From a virus: 48,425 bases of DNA. A model generated the notes under the pieces. That model was not told where the DNA came from. It was given only the letters and a program-made list of their open reading frames with translations, and did no database searches. The first letter of the stretch is position 1. Each line of letters starts with the position of its first letter. Positions 14,996 to 30,627 of this stretch are shown here, one piece after another. The stretch is from the IMG/VR virus record IMGVR_UViG_3300031976_000138, positions 1 to 48,425 of that record; one strand, given 5' to 3'. Made by a program: the position numbers and the translations under genes.

Positions 14996-15529
14996 TTATA
15001 ATCTGCCAAAAAATTCTGTTGCTGTTTTGTTTTTTAAATCAAATAGATACCACGCACAGTTATCTTTTCCTGTGTTTTTACTATCTTCAATCCATTTCAC
15101 TCTTCCTACACTGACAATCTTTTTACAATATTTTAAATATGGTATGGCCTGTCTAGTGTGCATCCAATCGGCATCAAAAAGTAACCAGGTCTTTCCTGAT
15201 GCTATAAAGTTTTCTATTAAAGGATGTAAAATATCTCTGTTCCAAGGTGGGTTAGTAATACAATATGTGTTACTTTTATATGCGTCCCACTTAATCGTCA
15301 AAGCATCTTCTTTACTAATGCCTTTATCTAACTGTGGCTCAATGTCTGTAGCTTTTATACAAACTCCATTTGTTAGAGTTTTAAGATGTTCTATTAACCT
15401 ACCATCTCCTGCACAAGGTTCAATATAATCAAAGGCTATTGGCAGGTGCGGAACTAATGGTGCTAACGCAGAGATTGGGGTAGGATAGAAGTCTCTTTCA
15501 ATTCTTTCAAAGTTAGATCTTTTACCCAT
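14996..15529 (-). CDS. Small N6-adenine-type DNA methyltransferase-like protein
   Basis: The 177-aa protein has the SAM-binding motif I (EPCAGDGRL, residues 37-45) and the catalytic tetrad NPPW (93-96) typical of amino-methyltransferases acting on adenine in DNA. An N-terminal DFYPTP segment is shared with many phage methylase-like proteins. No separate target-recognition domain is visible, so specificity may be loose, or the protein may have another role. It sits between the reductase and a run of small genes. It is the first of two methyltransferases in the leftward block; the other is the C5-cytosine enzyme at 24340-25311. Possible role: host-mimicking methylation against restriction. Confidence 0.8.
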   Translation of the reverse strand: MGKRSNFERIERDFYPTPISALAPLVPHLPIAFDYIEPCAGDGRLIEHLKTLTNGVCIKATDIEPQLDKGISKEDALTIKWDAYKSNTYCITNPPWNRDILHPLIENFIASGKTWLLFDADWMHTRQAIPYLKYCKKIVSVGRVKWIEDSKNTGKDNCAWYLFDLKNKTATEFFGRL

Positions 15530-22146: not shown

Positions 22147-22950
22147 TTAACCGCACAGTGCTTTTAATTTAATTAGATCCTTTGTCTCTCTATACTTTAT
22201 ATCATCGTTTAAACGCATAGCAATAGTGTCTATCCCCGTCCAAGACGCTATCTCTCGTCTGTACTGCAAGTTCTTGTGTGAAGCATCAGGGTCTAAAGCA
22301 ACTATAATTTTTTTATATTCCTGTAGATACTCCATATGTTTTAGGCTTAATGATGTTCCTAAGATAGCTATACCTGTGACATTTTGACACACACTACATA
22401 TAGTGTTAGCACTAATAACATCCTCAACAATAACTGCAACACCATTAGATTTCCCTTTACAAGCAAGATAAACATCGGCTGCACCCGTGTATCTTAACCA
22501 CTTTGGTATTCCCCCTACTAATGATCTACCTACGGCATCAATAATTGTGCCATCTTTTCGTATAGGAAACACTGCTCTCTTATCTTTAACGTCATACAAT
22601 AATTCTACGTATTCTAGACCCCAACCTTTAATAAAGTTAATTAACTTCTTATCCTTACTTATAGGGACAATGTATTCTGGTATGATCATAGGTACATTTT
22701 CCTGGCACCTATCTTGGGCAGAACTACTGTCACTTAATGAAGCTATACGTTTCTTTATTTGCCCTGCTGTCATCCCTTCGTAAATACCCCCTGCTTCAGA
22801 ACACATTAACTTATAACATTGATATAGAATAACACCATCAATGCGACTAATACTTAATGTATTTGATCCCCTGCAAGAAGGGCAGTCCATTCTAAGACGT
22901 TCCCCTTCTGCAATGTTTATATCCTGGATAAAAGATTTTATGCTACCCAT
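22147..22950 (-). CDS. DNA primase (zinc finger plus Toprim)
   Basis: I place the start at the ATG at 22950, giving 267 aa and an eight-base overlap with the recombinase; the longer ATG at 22989 would overlap by 47 nt. The N-terminus has a zinc finger, CPSC (C23, C26) with C45 and C50, like T7 gp4 and DnaG zinc-binding domains that read template trigger sites. The Toprim core follows: VIVEDVISA (E176) and ALDPDASH (D220, D222). No helicase domain is fused. It should lay down RNA primers at the fork together with the separate helicase. Confidence 0.9.
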   Translation of the reverse strand: MGSIKSFIQDINIAEGERLRMDCPSCRGSNTLSISRIDGVILYQCYKLMCSEAGGIYEGMTAGQIKKRIASLSDSSSAQDRCQENVPMIIPEYIVPISKDKKLINFIKGWGLEYVELLYDVKDKRAVFPIRKDGTIIDAVGRSLVGGIPKWLRYTGAADVYLACKGKSNGVAVIVEDVISANTICSVCQNVTGIAILGTSLSLKHMEYLQEYKKIIVALDPDASHKNLQYRREIASWTGIDTIAMRLNDDIKYRETKDLIKLKALCG

Positions 22951-23833
22951 TAGCGTTTCGCTTAGATAGCGCAGTAGTTGCACCCTCACGAGTATTAACT
23001 AAATAGTTCTTAACTGATTGGGGGTTTTGATGCCCTGTAACCTGCATAATACCAAATACATCAACATCACTCTCTACCATCTCAGTTACAGCAGTTCTCC
23101 TAAAATCCATTGCCCACAACTCTGGTCTAATGTTTGCTTCTCGCTTTATATCGTTAACTAAATAAGATATTTCTTGTTCAGAGTATTCCCGATAGCCATT
23201 GCCCCTAATAGGGATGCGAGGACACACATACTCTGACACCCCATCAAAGTCTTCCTTTTGTTGCTGTAGCATTTTGATTAACTTATCATCAATAGGTAAA
23301 TGAACTTCTGCCCCTCTCTTGGACTGTTTTATATTGGCTGTTTTCTCAGTAAAATTTATACTGCACCACTTTAACTGCCTCATATCTTTTAGTCTCTGCC
23401 CAAAATCGTATGCCATCTGGCACAACAAAGCAATATTTCTATACTTAAAGTTTCCGTAAGCAATATCTAAAAATCTTTTAACCTCGTCACGTTCCCACTT
23501 AACTGAACGTACACTATCTTTTGTAGTCTCTAAGCCAACTAAAGGATTTTTATCCATAAGTTCATTCTGCATTGCATATTTAAATACAACAGATAGTGAA
23601 CTCTTACGCATATTAGCAGTACGTGTACCAGTGCGTAGCCACTGTTCATATGCTACAGCAACATGTTTTAAAGATATTTTCTTTAACTTCATATCGCCTA
23701 GTCTCACATTATTCTGCACAATAGTTGCACAAACCTTTTTCTGTTGTGACATATATTCTTTTTGGGTTTTTATAGACAGCTTACAAAACTTAGGGGAACA
23801 CCTATATTGTTCTGCCATATCTTTTAATATCAT
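22943..23833 (-). CDS. Tyrosine recombinase/integrase with altered HxxR box
   Basis: The 296-aa protein has an N-terminal SAM-like core-binding region and a catalytic domain with R147 (FGQRLKD), K172 (QSKRG), R245 (MDFRRTA), H268 (VTGHQN) and nucleophile Y277 (VKNYL). The first His of the usual HxLR box is Met (M242), so the catalytic set is R-K-M-R-H-Y. Overlaps with both neighbours bind it into the replication operon. It could serve lysogeny, or resolve multimers during replication. I saw no tRNA-like attachment sequence nearby. The family is certain; integrase versus resolvase use is open. Confidence 0.9.
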   Translation of the reverse strand: MILKDMAEQYRCSPKFCKLSIKTQKEYMSQQKKVCATIVQNNVRLGDMKLKKISLKHVAVAYEQWLRTGTRTANMRKSSLSVVFKYAMQNELMDKNPLVGLETTKDSVRSVKWERDEVKRFLDIAYGNFKYRNIALLCQMAYDFGQRLKDMRQLKWCSINFTEKTANIKQSKRGAEVHLPIDDKLIKMLQQQKEDFDGVSEYVCPRIPIRGNGYREYSEQEISYLVNDIKREANIRPELWAMDFRRTAVTEMVESDVDVFGIMQVTGHQNPQSVKNYLVNTREGATTALSKRNANG

Positions 23834-23967: not shown

Positions 23968-24076
23968 TATTAAAAAAATCATCAATAGTTGAATTTAAAT
24001 CATCTACAATGTTAGCATAAAGAATAGCAACCATTATTATGACGACAAGTACACTAATCAAAATAAGATTACGCAT
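23960..24076 (-). CDS. Single-TM microprotein (38 aa)
   Basis: The 38-aa product has a short MRN start, a hydrophobic helix spanning about residues 4-22 (LILISVLVVIIMVAILYA) and an acidic tail (DDLNSTIDDFF). A strong AGGAG Shine-Dalgarno precedes the ATG. It overlaps the zinc-ribbon gene and the 45-aa membrane microprotein by eight bases each. The acidic tail contrasts with the basic tail of its neighbour, so the two could pair in the membrane; that is inference. No family is known to me. Confidence 0.75.
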   Translation of the reverse strand: MRNLILISVLVVIIMVAILYANIVDDLNSTIDDFFNNG

Positions 24077-24236
24077 AAATTTTCTCCTCTCCTGTTCCAT
24101 TACATTCGGGGCAATCCTCTTCCCCTACATCTTCTAACTCACTGTAAGTGTAGTCTCCTGATGAACGTATTACTTTTATGATAGGTATCCAACCGTCACC
24201 AAAACAGTTAGGACATTTCTTAGGTTTAAGTATCAT
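24069..24236 (-). CDS. Small DnaJ-type zinc-ribbon protein
   Basis: I chose the ATG at 24236 (55 aa) because a good AGGAGA Shine-Dalgarno precedes it; an upstream ATG at 24296 is inside the next gene. The product carries CPNCFGDG and CPECNGTG, two halves of a DnaJ-like zinc centre, linked by about 27 residues. The same CxxCxGxG style occurs in the PolA insertion. It may be a stand-alone chaperone-type or nucleic-acid-binding ribbon. It is overlapped on both sides by microgenes. Confidence 0.8.
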   Translation of the reverse strand: MILKPKKCPNCFGDGWIPIIKVIRSSGDYTYSELEDVGEEDCPECNGTGEEKIYA

Positions 24237-24343
24237 TTGTTCTCCTCTCTGTGCATTTCTCTTTGCTCCAGGATTAATAGTCTCTCCTTGATACATCTAA
24301 CTTGAGCTATCAATGACGCTATTTGTTTCTGATCCTCAGTCAT
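24233..24343 (-). CDS. Small coiled-coil microprotein (36 aa)
   Basis: This tiny gene opens in an ATGA overlap with the end of the cytosine methyltransferase and closes in an ATGA overlap with the zinc-ribbon gene. The product, starting MTEDQKQIAS, is predicted as one amphipathic helix rich in Ile, Leu, Glu and Arg. Its perfect fit between two genes argues for real translation. It may only couple translation of neighbours, or act as a small interaction module. Function unknown. Confidence 0.65.
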   Translation of the reverse strand: MTEDQKQIASLIAQVRCIKERLLILEQREMHREENK

Positions 24344-25311
24344 AATGTCATTCCTTTCAGTAAATGTGATATAACTGGTATCGTAAAGCCATTACCTACC
24401 ATTCGATAGCGTTGGGTATTACTAACGTGTGCAGTATAATTGTCTGGCATACCTTGCAGACGCTCCACTTCTAGTGGCAATAATTTACGCCACATAGGTT
24501 TGTCAGCAGTCTCAACTAAAACCTTCGGCTCTAAGTTGCCACCTGATGCGGCACATACTGAGGGTGACTTGCCCTTGCGGTGGTAGACCCTACGATTGTA
24601 GCCGTGACCCTTCAAGTCAGCGTCACCTACGTGCGCTAGACCTTCTGGCGAAAACACTAGCTGTCGCCTATGTTTCTCGAAGTATGACTTTAAGTTACCG
24701 CCTTTGAAGTAGTTAGCATCAATACAAAATGATTTGTCTCTGTCAGCAGAGTAGCCGTCATCTTCTAGTATGTCTTGTAATACTACGCACTTATCGTCAG
24801 GCAAATCAGACTGAGGTATGTTTGTCCAATAGTATCGTACACGATTTTGTGCTGTTAGTAGTGATGAGTTTATCTTAACTGGGGTAACACCCAATGCGTC
24901 AGATATAATGTCCATATTACTTTGTTTCATCCGCACGTTTTCTAGTAGAAAGTATTTAGGTTTAAACTCCTTTAATAGTCTAACGTATTCAAAGAACAAA
25001 GAAGAACGTGTCCCAGGAACTAATCCTTTCTGATGCCCTGCAAACGATACATCCTGACATGGTGAGCCACCTATAAGTAGATCAAAAGGATTTTCTTTTA
25101 AGTAAGATTCTCTGTACAACTTCTCAGAAAATTCTCTGACATCACCCATCTGCCACACTGTATTGCCCCAGTTAGCTTGTGACACTGTGTTAGCGTACTT
25201 GTCAGTTTCTAAGCTGACATATGTTTTTATTGGGATGTTGTTAGCTCGAAGGGCAAGCATTGCCCCCGAACAGCCATTGAATGGGGCTAATACATTTATA
25301 CCTTTTTCCAT
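24340..25311 (-). CDS. C5-cytosine DNA methyltransferase
   Basis: With the start at the ATG at 25311 the protein is 323 aa; an upstream ATG would overlap the neighbouring gene. C5 methyltransferase motifs appear in order: a motif I variant FNGCSGAML (11-19), the catalytic loop GGSPCQDVSFAG with C85, LLENV (122-126), QNRVRYYWTNI (155-165) and a late VGNGFTIPV. The region between about 180 and 270 would be target recognition. Phage enzymes of this class mask DNA from host restriction or mark regulatory DNA. No partner restriction gene is visible. The target is unknown; the CCWGG array at 27860-27998 makes CCWGG worth testing. Confidence 0.93.
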   Translation of the reverse strand: MEKGINVLAPFNGCSGAMLALRANNIPIKTYVSLETDKYANTVSQANWGNTVWQMGDVREFSEKLYRESYLKENPFDLLIGGSPCQDVSFAGHQKGLVPGTRSSLFFEYVRLLKEFKPKYFLLENVRMKQSNMDIISDALGVTPVKINSSLLTAQNRVRYYWTNIPQSDLPDDKCVVLQDILEDDGYSADRDKSFCIDANYFKGGNLKSYFEKHRRQLVFSPEGLAHVGDADLKGHGYNRRVYHRKGKSPSVCAASGGNLEPKVLVETADKPMWRKLLPLEVERLQGMPDNYTAHVSNTQRYRMVGNGFTIPVISHLLKGMTL

Positions 25312-25312
25312 A

Positions 25313-25654
25313 TTAATCCATCCACCCATCATTATATACAGCATCAGGGAAAAACTGTTTGATATATACCAATGCTTTACCTACTGCTTGGGATGCTGAG
25401 ACATTACCTTGCACCCAACCACAAGACACTACGTTGATGTCTTCAGCTATGCGCTTGCCCTTACGAATGTAAGGTATGCTGATACCCTTACCACCACAAC
25501 ATGACCCCATATCTTCTGCGCCATTATTCTGCCACGTATCGTACCAGATCTGCTTGGCGGTATCTATCTCTCGCTTTAGCATCTTCAAGTCTTCCTCTTG
25601 ATATGCCATAACTTTATTGGGGTTTTTAGTATAGTACTTAGGTGCTAACTTCAT
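25313..25654 (-). CDS. Hypothetical protein with SCCGGKG motif
   Basis: The 113-aa protein is basic at the N-terminus, with a predicted helix (about residues 20-45) that includes the tryptophans of IWYDTW. A glycine and cysteine motif GSCCGGKGI (about 50-58) comes next, then an alpha/beta segment with VSCGWVQGN. It may bind metal or nucleotide, but I do not recognise the family. It ends one base before the methyltransferase ATG and overlaps the upstream zinc microprotein by four bases (ATGA), so all three are likely co-expressed. Confidence 0.75.
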   Translation of the reverse strand: MKLAPKYYTKNPNKVMAYQEEDLKMLKREIDTAKQIWYDTWQNNGAEDMGSCCGGKGISIPYIRKGKRIAEDINVVSCGWVQGNVSASQAVGKALVYIKQFFPDAVYNDGWMD

Positions 25655-25806
25655 AATTCATCTCCTTCTATTTGACATTCGTGACACATATAACCCTCTT
25701 CATAAAAGGAATCTACGCCATCTTGGCGATCCGCATAAATCCTATTAACAAATTTACCCGAACCAAAACTAGTATCCTCTCGACACCATAAACAAATGTT
25801 ATCCAT
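25651..25806 (-). CDS. Zinc-finger microprotein (51 aa)
   Basis: The product begins MDNICLWCRE and ends YMCHECQIEGDEL, giving a four-cysteine zinc site (C5-x2-C8 and C41-x2-C44) around an acidic aromatic middle. The ATG overlaps the HTH gene by eight bases and the TGA overlaps the next ATG by four. Short phage zinc proteins often modulate host transcription or nucleases. The metal site is clear from spacing; the role is unknown. Confidence 0.78.
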   Translation of the reverse strand: MDNICLWCREDTSFGSGKFVNRIYADRQDGVDSFYEEGYMCHECQIEGDEL

Positions 25807-26038
25807 TTACTGTATCTTTAACTGGTGCAAAGTCCTCTCTATCTAAAACGTAGTACTGTTTATAGGGGGTACGCCTAACCTTATCAATTTTATTGACTGA
25901 CAAAATTCTGTAACCCTTACGCCTAAGCTCAGATATAACTTTAGTTAGAGATAATATGTTGTAACAGAAGACTGCCTCTCTAGTAGAAATACTAGCTTTA
26001 GTTTTTAGGTGAGTTATTACTTTTGTTTCTTGTACCAT
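25799..26038 (-). CDS. Winged helix-turn-helix regulator-like protein
   Basis: The 79-aa basic protein has a helix-turn-helix arrangement: ITHLKTKASIS, then REAVFCYNILSLTKVISELRR as the recognition unit (about residues 19-40), and a wing-like RKGYRILSVNKI. This resembles the phage HTH_39 type of small winged-helix proteins. It is the first gene of the long leftward replication block, directly downstream of a 223-nt intergenic control region with repeats, so it may autoregulate. The Shine-Dalgarno is AAAGGA. DNA binding is family inference. Confidence 0.75.
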   Translation of the reverse strand: MVQETKVITHLKTKASISTREAVFCYNILSLTKVISELRRKGYRILSVNKIDKVRRTPYKQYYVLDREDFAPVKDTVNG

Positions 26039-26164
26039 TATATGATTCCTTTCTTGTTATAATGTACCCCTTTATGACATACTTGAACTGATAATACAAT
26101 AGCAGTTATTTTACTAGGCACTTATCGTAGCATTAAAATACCAGGAATATTAAAACGTGCAGCC

Positions 26165-26203
26165 GTCCTGGATGACCGATGTATGACAGTACCAGGAAGT
26201 TTA
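26165..26203. repeat. 39-bp intergenic repeat, copy 1
   Basis: This element matches 27942-27980 at 38 of 39 positions (a C/G difference). Inside it, TCCTGG and CCAGGA form a 6-bp inverted repeat about 20 nt apart. Each copy is in a noncoding gap just ahead of a leftward transcription unit, so it looks like a duplicated binding or regulatory site. Confidence 0.9.
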
Positions 26204-26211
26204 TGACAAAT

Positions 26212-26239
26212 AAAAAAGAGGACAGCCCGTGGTCTGCCC
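26212..26239 (-). terminator. Rho-independent terminator of the 26262-27731 leftward unit
   Basis: Read leftward, the RNA has a 6-bp stem GGGCAG/CUGUCC (one G-U pair), an 8-nt loop, and then a UCUUUUUU tract. It lies just after the stop of the 26262 gene. The stem contains one A-C mismatch if read rightward and lacks a T tract there, so it acts on the leftward transcript. Confidence 0.75.
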
Positions 26240-26261
26240 CCCTATAATTTTTATACATATA

Positions 26262-26771
26262 CTATGCTATCATTTTAAAACCCCCCTCTATCCATTCTTG
26301 TTCTGTTAACTCTATTGTTTTACTCATACCTTCCATTAAGTATGAAACCTTTGTTTTAGATTTGTTCTTAATGGGTGCGTGAATGTAGGGTCTATCCCAC
26401 TTACCTACGTGGACACTTAAATAATACGCTGTATCAAAGTGGTCGTACATTGCGTCACTTTTGTTATACCATTTTGTACCCTTCATAGCCTTGAATAGGT
26501 CATCAAAAAAAGCAACGCACTCTGGCTGATCTTTGTAATGCTTTTGGTAATGGTATTGATTTACGCTTTCATAAATTATTTTAGTACCAGTAAAAATAAT
26601 CCCTCTGGCCTGATGCTTACGATTTAAAAAGTCTAATGCCCCCTCTCTTATAGTTACTACTAATGTCGAATAATTTCTAACTGAAACCGTACCTTTAACA
26701 TTATGTTTAGCTAGTACCGCCTTGATGTTAGGCATTAATTCGTTTTTATCGGCCTGATTAATATATGCCAT
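26262..26771 (-). CDS. Conserved phage protein of unknown function (LPD29-like)
   Basis: The 169-aa protein starts with AYINQADKNELMPNIKAVL, an arrangement I associate with a domain common in phages and mobile elements (possibly the LPD29-type domain of polyvalent proteins). A beta-rich VRNYSTLVVTI follows, then a Lys/Tyr-rich C-terminal half. It is the last gene of a leftward unit ending in a good terminator. These small units next to the control region are usually early host-takeover genes. The biochemical role is unknown and the domain name is tentative. Confidence 0.75.
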   Translation of the reverse strand: MAYINQADKNELMPNIKAVLAKHNVKGTVSVRNYSTLVVTIREGALDFLNRKHQARGIIFTGTKIIYESVNQYHYQKHYKDQPECVAFFDDLFKAMKGTKWYNKSDAMYDHFDTAYYLSVHVGKWDRPYIHAPIKNKSKTKVSYLMEGMSKTIELTEQEWIEGGFKMIA

Positions 26772-26787
26772 ATTATGATTCCTTTTT

Positions 26788-27069
26788 TTAAGTGTTTAAC
26801 CATTCTTCAAAAGTTTTAGGAAATGCTTCCTGCGTATTATCTATGTAGCATTGGTATTTTTGACCCTCTAAAGTTAAGTCATCTGGGCTACTTTTGTTGT
26901 AATCAATTATTAAATCTACATCTACTATATGATATTCATCATCAAAGATTCTTTTTATTTGTTTTTCGTTATCAACTAAGCATTTTAAATATATATAATT
27001 ATGATCTGCACTGTGCATATAAGCACCGCTATTTTTTGATAATAAAGTAACTGAATATTTTTTAGACAT
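26788..27069 (-). CDS. Hypothetical acidic early protein
   Basis: The 93-aa protein has an alternating beta-like N-terminus (MSKKYSVTLLSKN) followed by an acidic, Asp- and Tyr-rich central part with YHIVDVDLIIDY and a C-terminal Trp-containing helix (FPKTFEEWL). Its ATG directly follows the stop of the upstream gene. No family is recognised. Its size, acidity and location fit an early protein that binds host factors, but this is inference only. Confidence 0.7.
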   Translation of the reverse strand: MSKKYSVTLLSKNSGAYMHSADHNYIYLKCLVDNEKQIKRIFDDEYHIVDVDLIIDYNKSSPDDLTLEGQKYQCYIDNTQEAFPKTFEEWLNT

Positions 27070-27507
27070 TTAAGCTACCTCTCTTGGTGTGCTAGACGTT
27101 CTAGAATATTCTAGTTCATCTTTTGCGAACATACGTTTGGCACTCTTATAGTCGCATACATACTTAACTTTTGTTTTCTTATTTATAAATATGTATGGGC
27201 GTTTTCTGGCTCTGTTGTTGTAGCCTACAAGCTGATACTGAGAGTGAATAGAATCTGAAGTGCTAAAAATTACACCTAACATTTTCTCACGTTCTATTTC
27301 ATCCATTAACGCTGTAACTTCTGGTGCTACAGCATTAGGTAAAGTAACAACAACTTTGAACGTAGCGGTATCAGAGTTGAAACTACAATTACCTACTTTA
27401 AAAGTTAAACCACTATCAATAGTAGCATTTGCTTCGTAACCAAGTGCTGTAAGACTATTCTGCATCTCAACTCTAATATTTTTTAATTGCGCTCTAGTAA
27501 ATTCCAT
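27070..27507 (-). CDS. Conserved phage protein of unknown function
   Basis: The 145-aa protein begins MEFTRAQLKNIRVEMQNSL, a helix typical of a widespread small phage protein, then a beta-rich section (LTFKVGNCSFN, ATFKVVVTLP) and a basic region with RKRPYIFINKKTKVKYVCDY. It partners with the LPD29-like gene two places downstream, and I recall such proteins occurring together, though I cannot verify it. The Shine-Dalgarno AGAGGA precedes the ATG. Function unknown; early expression is inferred. Confidence 0.72.
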   Translation of the reverse strand: MEFTRAQLKNIRVEMQNSLTALGYEANATIDSGLTFKVGNCSFNSDTATFKVVVTLPNAVAPEVTALMDEIEREKMLGVIFSTSDSIHSQYQLVGYNNRARKRPYIFINKKTKVKYVCDYKSAKRMFAKDELEYSRTSSTPREVA

Positions 27508-27512
27508 TTGTA

Positions 27513-27731
27513 TTAATCCTCTCTTGTTTCAGCTATTGATGAATTATTGCCGTCTATCGTAAATGCTTTTACTACATCTAAGGCCATTCTTTTATTTTCA
27601 GAAAAAAGACACACTTCAACTTTTTCATTTTCATCATTAACAATATTAATTCTTATGGTTTCAAAAGTGTCGTGTATTATATTTTCTATATCAACTTTTT
27701 TTACGCGGTGAACTGTAATACCTGTAGACAT
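27513..27731 (-). CDS. Small hypothetical early protein
   Basis: The 72-aa product starts MSTGITVHRVKKVDIENII and continues with alternating strands and helices, ending in an acidic tail (ETRED). A strong AAAGGAG Shine-Dalgarno is present. It is the first gene after the 358-nt control region at 27732-28089 and a predicted promoter at 27784-27811, so it is likely the first translated of this unit. No recognised family; possible ferredoxin-like fold is speculation. Confidence 0.68.
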   Translation of the reverse strand: MSTGITVHRVKKVDIENIIHDTFETIRINIVNDENEKVEVCLFSENKRMALDVVKAFTIDGNNSSIAETRED

Positions 27732-27783
27732 TATTTTTTCTCCTTTAATATCTAAAACGAATCAATTTATATTCTGTATATTA

Positions 27784-27811
27784 GTTATATCACACCCATC
27801 AGTTAACGCAA
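27784..27811 (-). promoter_or_regulatory. Sigma-70-like leftward promoter
   Basis: Read leftward: TTGCGT, a 16-nt spacer, TATAAC. The predicted start would be near 27777, about 46 nt before the ATG of the 27731 gene. The -35 box directly joins a TTAACTGAT motif, one of several in the intergenic regions. Confidence 0.6.
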
Positions 27812-27859
27812 GAAATAATATCAGTTAAATTACTAGGCAATTATCGTGCAGTTATCTTG

Positions 27860-27998
27860 CCAGGATTTAACCAGGACTTAGCCAGGACTTTGCGGCAGGT
27901 ATCGTAGGCACATTCTCCCAGGAAAGCTGCGTATTTGTTTTGTCCTGGATGACCGATGTATGAGAGTACCAGGAAGTTTAGGCCAGGACTTGGCCAGG
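27860..27998. repeat. Cluster of eight CCWGG sites, partly 11-bp phased
   Basis: CCWGG occurs at 27860, 27871, 27882, 27918, 27944, 27969, 27983 and 27994. Within two runs the spacing is exactly 11 bp, with a repeated CCAGGAYTT core. For AT-rich DNA this density is far above chance. CCWGG is the known target of E. coli Dcm, and this phage encodes a C5-cytosine methyltransferase at 24340-25311. Confidence 0.9.
27942..27980. repeat. 39-bp intergenic repeat, copy 2
   Basis: Second copy of the element at 26165-26203, with one mismatch (C/G). It contains the same TCCTGG/CCAGGA inverted pair and sits inside the CCWGG cluster. Confidence 0.9.
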
Positions 27999-28035
27999 AT
28001 TTTAGGCAAGTATCTTAATGTGAGAGTAGGCACAT

Positions 28036-28061
28036 AAAAAAAAAGCCCCACAAAGTGAGAC
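28036..28061 (-). terminator. Rho-independent terminator of the 28090-29752 leftward unit
   Basis: Read leftward, the RNA forms a 7-bp stem GUCUCAC/GUGGGGC (two G-U pairs) with a 3-nt loop, followed by nine U residues. It lies just after the stop of the 28090 gene and is the clearest leftward terminator in the window. Confidence 0.85.
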
Positions 28062-28089
28062 CTAATTTTATTTATATTTTAGTTTAGGA

Positions 28090-28773
28090 TTATAGGTTAT
28101 GGCGTTCTCGATATGCGAGCCAAGTAATGGCCTGAATTTCCATTGGGATATAAGTGCGACCTTCAATTTTATTTATTTTATCGGTGGCTAGTCTATAGGC
28201 TTGTTGTATATGTGCGTATTGTTTGGGAGTCATATTAGACTTGCTATCATTTACTGTAATCCTATCCCCCAAATATATCGAGAGTGCGTGGCCGTCTACA
28301 CATATTTCGTTGGTATCGTGTGGGTTTATAATACAAGAATAAAAAGATTTTACTTTATGCCCAGAATCTTTTTTAGGTTTAATAATTTCTATTATAGGTA
28401 ATTTAGGTAATAGATCATTTCGGCAATCATTAAACAAAACATTAAGAGCCTTTGTTTTATTAGGATTAAAAGTAGAGACTTTTATTGTGTCAAATATTTC
28501 TGACTCTGGCATGTCACAATTGAACGCCGCCAATAAAGACTCCGCGTCAATTATGTTTTTGTCCCAATGGTTATTTGGACTAAGTGCCGCAATGACTCCG
28601 CAAGTTTTAGGTAATGAAACGCTAAAAGATTCAGATAGTGTTGAAGCTATTTTATGCGCTGTAAAATACCATTGCTTGCCCTCTACTTTGTTTTTGTCGC
28701 TACTGTTTAGATATTCGGCTACAATATGATTAATTGGAAATGTGTTTTCCTTTACGTGATTTTGAATTGTCAT
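28090..28773 (-). CDS. Conserved phage protein (DUF7178-like)
   Basis: The 227-aa protein has a pattern I recall from conserved hypothetical phage proteins: WYFTAHKIA, then GVIAALSPNNHWDKNI, a KALNVL segment, VKSFYSCI, a VDGHALSIYLGD motif and a C-terminal QAITWLAYRER. The conserved DGHA and SPN..W motifs look like an active or binding site, reminiscent in layout of helix-hairpin-helix glycosylase-like folds, but this is only an impression. It is the last gene of the outermost leftward unit, ahead of a strong terminator. Function unknown. Confidence 0.75.
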   Translation of the reverse strand: MTIQNHVKENTFPINHIVAEYLNSSDKNKVEGKQWYFTAHKIASTLSESFSVSLPKTCGVIAALSPNNHWDKNIIDAESLLAAFNCDMPESEIFDTIKVSTFNPNKTKALNVLFNDCRNDLLPKLPIIEIIKPKKDSGHKVKSFYSCIINPHDTNEICVDGHALSIYLGDRITVNDSKSNMTPKQYAHIQQAYRLATDKINKIEGRTYIPMEIQAITWLAYRERHNL

Positions 28774-29752: not shown

Positions 29753-29862
29753 ATTGTTTTATCCTTTATAAATAACGAATCAGTAACGACTCTCAATAAT
29801 TGATATTAACATTTAACTGACAATAGATAAACCATATCAGTTAAAATAGTCGCTGCTGTTGC

Positions 29863-29969
29863 TACGCGCTCAGTGCATAGGTGCTATGCGCTCAGGGCAT
29901 GTGAGTAGTGACCGTTGTGTGAGAGTAGGTATGCGCTCAGTGCATAGGTACTTATGCGTCTACTGCATA
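29863..29969. repeat. Four phased 17-bp dyad repeats (iteron-like)
   Basis: The units are at 29863-29879, 29885-29901, 29930-29946 and 29953-29969. Each has the form TATGC, a 7-nt spacer (usually GCTCAGT), GCATA; units 1 and 2 carry single changes in one arm. Start-to-start distances are 22, 45 and 23 bp, so all lie on about the same helix face. They resemble iterons or operator sites for a dimeric protein. Confidence 0.85.
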
Positions 29970-30216
29970 GGTCTAGCTCGTGGTTGGTTGAGTAGGTTGT
30001 ATATCTTTTTGATTTTGAGTGTGCGCGCCACAAGTAGGGATGTACTTCTGAAACCATAACTTTGTATTAACTGATATAGTATTAGTTATAAGATGTAATG
30101 TTAACAAATGCTTAACTAAGTATAGTTCTAAATAAATATATTATCCTACTAGATAACCTATAGTTTAGGATATTTTCCCCACAAAATCAGTGCTTTATAT
30201 ATGTGAGTAGTTGCGA

Positions 30217-30246: not shown

Positions 30247-30438
30247 TACGTTATATATGTATAGTTACACACACGGGGTTTTTCCGACCTGGTAGTTTGT
30301 ACACCTAAAACTACTTTATTTGTGATCACATTCACTAGTAACCAGCTTATAACTGCGACATGTTGACACACTAAGCGCAATAATGTTTGACTACTAGCTA
30401 AAAATCAGTATAACTGCGTAGCAGTAGCAGCCTTAAAG

Positions 30439-30529: not shown

Positions 30530-30558
30530 TTGACACCCTATTAACTTTGTATTATGAT
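30530..30558 (+). promoter_or_regulatory. Strong sigma-70-like rightward promoter
   Basis: TTGACA (30530-30535), a 17-nt spacer and TATGAT (30553-30558): an exact -35, ideal spacing and a one-mismatch -10. The expected start is near 30565, exactly at the 5' arm of an inverted repeat. It is the best promoter match in the window. Confidence 0.85.
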
Positions 30559-30563
30559 TCTTG

Positions 30564-30627
30564 TTATGTAACATACATCACATAAAGGTTTGTCTCTCCC
30601 TCCCTTTAAACTTTGTATGTTACATAA
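30564..30627. repeat. 14-bp inverted repeat at the predicted transcription start
   Basis: TTATGTAACATACA (30564-30577) is perfectly complementary to TGTATGTTACATAA (30614-30627). In RNA this makes a 5'-end hairpin with an inner TAAAGG/CCUUUA extension. As DNA, each arm contains the near-palindrome TATGTNACATA, so each could also be an operator; a third TATGTTACATA is at 31331-31341. Confidence 0.85.

Follow-up and report, generated by a model that had tools for sequence, protein, structure and literature searches.

Apl of phage 186 binds direct repeats spaced 10-11 bp at the early promoters (pR-pL) and at attP (PMC7498355). RdfS and BldC, two winged-helix proteins that control promoters, occupy DNA at a density of about one molecule per turn (PMC11963761). 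In the present study, we analysed a window of 48,425 nucleotides, the whole stretch of viral DNA presented above, and compared a dense cluster of CCWGG sites in it with these systems. Like the arrays of 186 Apl and P2 Cox, the cluster was built from direct repeats of a short site, was found at early promoters in a phage that has a tyrosine integrase, and lay apart from the repressor operators (PMC7498355). The direct repeats of about one helical turn that characterize RDF/Cox/Apl sites were found here as 11-bp steps, with a lag-11 self-match of 0.70. The locus differed in that a conserved 19-bp core was ringed by sites at three promoters of the same direction, and in that no lag-11 array was seen beside int, although the position of attP was not located. 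In addition, no Apl/Cox relative was found, and the candidate winged-helix protein belonged to PF14090. The winged-helix binding proposed below, one molecule per turn at promoters, would be analogous to RdfS and BldC filaments, but the winged-helix protein of the window had no sequence or fold match to either.

HMO-2011-type phages are a dominant marine group, and some members carry an integrase. In the papers that we consulted, regulation in these phages is essentially undescribed. Judged by its homologous replication and packaging genes, the window is an uncultured marine phage of this type. Its helicase was 68.7% identical to that of Roseobacter phage CRP-603 and 55% identical to that of HMO-2011, its terminase was 84-87% identical to those of CRP-2 and CRP-603, and its early and late gene arms were divergent, as in CRP-603. 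The early control regions of CRP-2 and CRP-603 also had short repeated sites upstream of the early operon, but the site sequences were different and the core described below (TGACCGNTGTNTGASAGTA) was absent. In CRP-2, units centred on TGCA were repeated at an exact 22-bp period within the early control region (L052 8718-8795, record ~53717-53794), and in CRP-603 the palindrome TGTGATCACA occurred four times upstream of the early operon, at spacings of 32, 46 and 31 bp (L051 34105-34223, record ~54104-54222). TGTGATCACA occurred once in CRP-2 and once in the window, at 30321. Thus, early control regions with repeated sites recur across the group, but the sequence of the sites changes.

A CCAGGA cluster in 11-bp register

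The first-pass annotation had reported eight CCWGG sites within 139 bp (27860-27998), with two runs spaced exactly 11 bp, in an AT-rich genome. We recovered all eight sites (27860, 27871, 27882, 27918, 27944, 27969, 27983 and 27994), separated by 11, 11, 36, 26, 25, 14 and 11 bp; one of the 11-bp runs comprised three sites (two steps) and the other two sites (one step). The GC content of the window was 38%. To estimate the chance level, 120 first-order Markov genomes were simulated with the length and composition of the window, keeping its dinucleotide make-up. The densest 139 bp in these genomes held at most four CCWGG sites, and same-strand CCAGGA pairs 11 bp apart, of which the window had three, did not occur in any of them. 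The lag-11 self-match of 27827-27882 was the highest of the window (0.70, runner-up 0.52), and this segment was the sole lag-11 case across 866 kb, which comprised the window and DNA of related phages. A second IMG/VR assembly, 99.9% identical, carried the identical array, so an assembly error is unlikely. Thus, the CCAGGA cluster with its spacing of one DNA turn is real and lies far beyond chance. A count of CCWGG outside 26100-28000, as the annotation had proposed, gave 42 sites in 46.5 kb, compared with 38 expected from a zero-order null and 57 from a maximal-order Markov null. CCWGG was therefore special only within 26100-28000 and showed neither enrichment nor strong avoidance in the rest of the window. 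The features of the region that holds the cluster (region 2) were as follows.

27784..27811, minus strand: putative promoter, TTGCGT, 16 bp, TATAAC, read by eye
27797..27828, unstranded: two operator-like copies 22 bp apart, CATCAGTTAA (27797-27806) and TATCAGTTAA (27819-27828)
27837..27891, plus strand: left phased array of 11-bp units GCAATTATCGT GCAGTTATCTT GCCAGGATTTA ACCAGGACTTA GCCAGGACTTT
27895..27905, plus strand: degenerate further unit GCAGGTATCGT, one mismatch to GCANTTATCGT
27918..27974, plus strand: CCAGGA (27918), TCCTGG (27943-27948) and CCAGGA (27969)
27950..27968, plus strand: core TGACCGATGTATGAGAGTA, from a consensus search
27983..28003, plus strand: right phased units CCAGGACTTGG CCAGGATTTT
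28043..28063, minus strand: terminator-like site directly before region 2, belonging to the leftward operon upstream, from a scan

All 11 CCWGG sites in 26100-28000 (regions 1 and 2) read CCAGGA on one strand, compared with 19 of 42 elsewhere (p ~1.6e-4). The unit was a directional CCAGGA, often CCAGGAYTT, rather than the CCWGG palindrome. Moreover, the 11-bp register extended through units lacking CCWGG (GCANTTATCNT). In region 2 it opened with two such units, GCAATTATCGT and GCAGTTATCTT, and the sites at 27860, 27871 and 27882 fell in the last three of the five units, GCCAGGATTTA, ACCAGGACTTA and GCCAGGACTTT. Both observations made the palindrome a less likely target than a directional site that is recognised once in every helical turn.

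Three sister regulatory regions and their relatives

Two sister regions were found, region 1 (~26064-26210) and region 3 (~29780-29990), and all three regions lay upstream of leftward early operons. The 19-bp core TGACCGNTGTNTGASAGTA was present in each of them (26173, 27950 and 29909), deviating from the search consensus at one position at most, and every other place in the window had at least four mismatches. Paired TTAACTGATA-like sequences, which we read as operators, lay over or near the putative leftward promoters in all three regions. In regions 1 and 2 alike, the CCWGG sites around the core stood 26 and 25 bp apart. The features of the sister regions were as follows.

26071..26109, minus strand: putative promoter/operator of region 1, TTGTAT, 16-17 bp, TCATAA or CATAAA, hexamers read by eye; TGAACTGATA at 26084-26093
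26118..26157, plus strand: short phased segment of region 1, GCACTTATCGT AGCATTAAAAT ACCAGGAATAT and onward
26158..26204, plus strand: 47-bp element of region 1, with the core at 26173-26191 and TCCTGG and CCAGGA at its edges
26216..26243, minus strand: terminator-like site just before region 1, from a scan
29796..29844, minus strand: putative promoter/operators of region 3, TTGTCA, 16 bp, AATTAT; TTAACTGACA at 29813-29822 and TATCAGTTAA at 29835-29844
29858..29970, plus strand: region 3 array of four 22-23-bp units of the GCGCTCAGTGCATAGGT type, of which two precede and two follow the core
29909..29927, plus strand: core of region 3, TGACCGTTGTGTGAGAGTA, no mismatches

Region 3 contained no CCWGG, though the core and operators were present, and its steps were 22-23 bp; the array of CRP-2 has steps of exactly 22 bp. 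Region 2 lay between its terminator-like site and the leftward gene starting at 27731. Its putative promoter was located ~46 bp before this start codon, and the promoter spacer held most of the operator at 27797-27806. The promoters of the three regions are consensus reads: an automatic scan of promoters and terminators gave no excess over shuffles, and the consensus promoter scan did not report the region 2 promoter.

Region 1 was compared with four IMG/VR contigs (L025, L027, L028 and L029), of which L028 also contained part of region 2, up to the end of the contig; the comparison of region 2 rests on this one partial relative, and region 3 was found only in the near-identical assembly. The genes shared with the relatives were mostly 70-85% identical, with a near-identical stretch in L029. 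The 47-bp element, comprising the core and its two flanking CCAGGA sites, was identical in all four relatives. It was the longest exact match of the window to the three most divergent ones (L025, L027 and L028), exceeding every coding match in 9-14.7 kb. Other top exact matches were the promoter/operator segments 26078-26113, an exact 36-bp match to the same three contigs, and 27749-27783.

The first-pass annotation had asked whether related phages keep the spacing. Region 2 of L028 kept the 11-bp register, with four clean units and two phased CCAGGA, and 27741-27876 was 89% identical between it and the window. Relatives carrying a methyltransferase at 85% DNA identity had fewer CCWGG sites (two in region 1 and three in the visible part of region 2), and region 1 of L025, L027 and L028 lacked 32 bp, or about three turns, in the phased segment. 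Region 1 of the window was 11 bp shorter, and its region 2 was ~47 bp longer than that of L028, or ~4.5 turns, which is not a whole-turn difference. The number of phased units around the core varied, mostly by whole helical turns.

In wider searches, none of 80 terminase-relative loci had the core or a cluster of at least four CCWGG sites. For the nearest annotated phages, region 2 had no DNA-level match and region 1 only short unrelated matches. In a search for the host, the core 20-mer was absent from 84,980 prokaryote genomes, and these contained no relative of the integrase either. A match to the core in contig L155 was judged to be chance, having no operator or repeat context, and the inspected clusters of CCAGGANTTNNCCAGGANTT in viral contigs were unrelated.

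Possible functions of the array

The position, spacing and direction of the sites, the conservation of the core together with the two sites that flank it, and the variable number of units were seen directly. Directional CCAGGA(YTT) and GCANTTATCNT units in 11-bp register flanked the core beside the paired TTAACTGATA-like operators. One suggestion of the annotation, a protein array along one face of the helix at a leftward promoter, is in keeping with 11-bp direct repeats upstream of a putative promoter with operators and with their placement in a conserved regulatory module. We consider it fairly probable that the cluster serves one of the three leftward sister promoter regions of this HMO-2011-type marine phage as its upstream binding array, on which a phage protein that binds cooperatively sets promoter output. 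A phage DNA-binding protein would nucleate at the core and its flanking CCAGGA sites and then occupy neighbouring units cooperatively, one molecule per turn, along one helix face. The bound protein would bend or coat the DNA and thereby set promoter output, and the number of units may tune this effect. A more specific proposal, possible though doubtful, is a novel phage module in which the core at three early promoters nucleates a filament, the flanking sites vary (11-bp CCAGGAYTT or 22-bp GCGCTCAGTGCATAGGT) with their phase largely kept, and the unit number tunes the promoter. The genes that bear on these readings and their rivals were as follows.

22943..23833, minus strand: tyrosine integrase
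24340..25344, minus strand: C5-cytosine DNA methyltransferase (PF00145)
25799..26038, minus strand: 79-aa winged-helix protein (PF14090, HTH_39), the first gene after region 1

The candidate binder is the 79-aa winged-helix protein, whose gene directly follows region 1. Its AlphaFold model was poor (pLDDT 69), and searches of the PDB by sequence and by fold, the latter with this low-confidence model, gave no useful match. Siovirus and CRP phages encode relatives of this protein. Among the annotated phages that we viewed, the gene abutted its neighbour, leaving no gap for an array. For these reasons we propose with only moderate confidence that the array works by analogy with that of 186 Apl/P2 Cox, and we did not assign it to that class. 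The three sister regions lend themselves to experiment as a small group of putative early promoters that have the core in common and differ naturally in unit number, and they would reveal how an HMO-2011-type phage regulates its early genes and perhaps how it chooses between lysis and lysogeny. The core was also considered as a promoter for a phage-type RNA polymerase and rejected, as no such polymerase was present among the scanned proteins, large unannotated ORFs included.

The first-pass annotation had also regarded methylation-sensitive control as plausible. In such a scheme, the C5 methyltransferase of the phage would modify the clustered CCWGG sites and so change regulator binding at the leftward promoter. 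The window does encode such an enzyme (PF00145, 5.8e-40), ~2.5 kb downstream of the cluster; the CCWGG sites are situated in a promoter region, and the conserved 47-bp element contains two of them. The combination of CCWGG sites and a C5 methyltransferase recalls Dcm-type methylation, but the unit here is directional and longer, and the enzyme shares just a catalytic segment with Dcm: the curated Dcm model NF007772 aligned only to residues 87-142 and scored 34.7 bits, where the cut-off is 710. The nearest PDB sequences were the catalytic domains of DNMT3A and then M.HhaI. The resemblance to E. coli-type Dcm was weak and confined to one catalytic motif. Since the register runs on through CCWGG-free units, region 3 has no CCWGG, the sites are all CCAGGA, relatives with a similar enzyme have lost sites, and CCWGG is unremarkable outside 26100-28000, we regard this explanation as highly improbable. 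The link between methyltransferase and array is proximity, nothing else, and our literature search returned no precedent for a CCWGG promoter array in a phage. Where the true unit is directional, a dense cluster of palindromes should not be taken to mark a site of methylation.

Other explanations were weighed on the same data. It is unlikely that the units are iterons for a replication initiator: direct repeats of 11 and 22 bp and a cumulative GC skew minimum at ~27-29 kb, with the 22-bp repeats of region 3 near the skew switch, fit an origin, but transcription direction also shapes skew, and each of the three copies has a terminator-like site or control region on one side and a leftward gene on the other. 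No initiator was found, whereas helicase, primase and polymerase are encoded. An array of att-type sites for the recombination directionality factor of the integrase would be in keeping with the tyrosine integrase of the window, with the 10-11-bp repeats bound by 186 Apl at attP (PMC7498355) and with the integration of the related phage CRP-3 in tRNA-Met (PMC6918029). We consider it quite unlikely, because the lag-11 maxima are not beside int, the module occurs three times at promoters, and CRP-603 and CRP-2 carry int without the core. An RNA leader or terminator structure, in which CCTGG and CCAGG pair in the transcript, appears very unlikely. TCCTGG and CCAGGA do form an inverted repeat around the core, and the minus strand of 27935-28040 folds modestly (z -2.0), but of eight folds tested, seven did not surpass shuffles (z -0.94 to +0.95), the fold of the main array among them, no Rfam match was obtained, and 11-bp direct repeats are unlike a hairpin pattern. 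A tRNA search likewise found none. The parC site of plasmid R1 is a partition centromere with repeats around a promoter, and the 11-bp direct repeats here flank a central element on both sides; a plasmid-like centromere is hardly credible, however, given three copies and no partition gene among the scanned proteins.

Other features of the window

Two further genes lay close to those discussed above. A DUF7178 protein (28090-28773; PF23802, 1.5e-39) is encoded just upstream of region 2, and a small protein with a weak match to the DnaJ CXXCXGXG zinc motif (24069-24296) is encoded beside the methyltransferase gene. HMO-2011-type DNA polymerases also have a partial DnaJ domain (PMC9038755). A second methyltransferase-like protein was found at 14996-15529 (PHROG 799 'DNA methyltransferase', 5.9e-33).

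CATG was strongly avoided in the window outside 26100-28000 (18 compared with 143 expected) and in the four relatives (33 compared with 192), and CCGG was absent from both (0 compared with 26 and 23 expected, respectively), which suggests restriction pressure from hosts. CRP-603 avoided AATT and TCWGA instead. At 30530-30627, a near-consensus rightward promoter (TTGACA, 17 bp, TATGAT; 11/12) was followed by a 25-nt inverted repeat, TTATGTAACATACA...TGTATGTTACATAA, and this segment probably controls the late, rightward arm.
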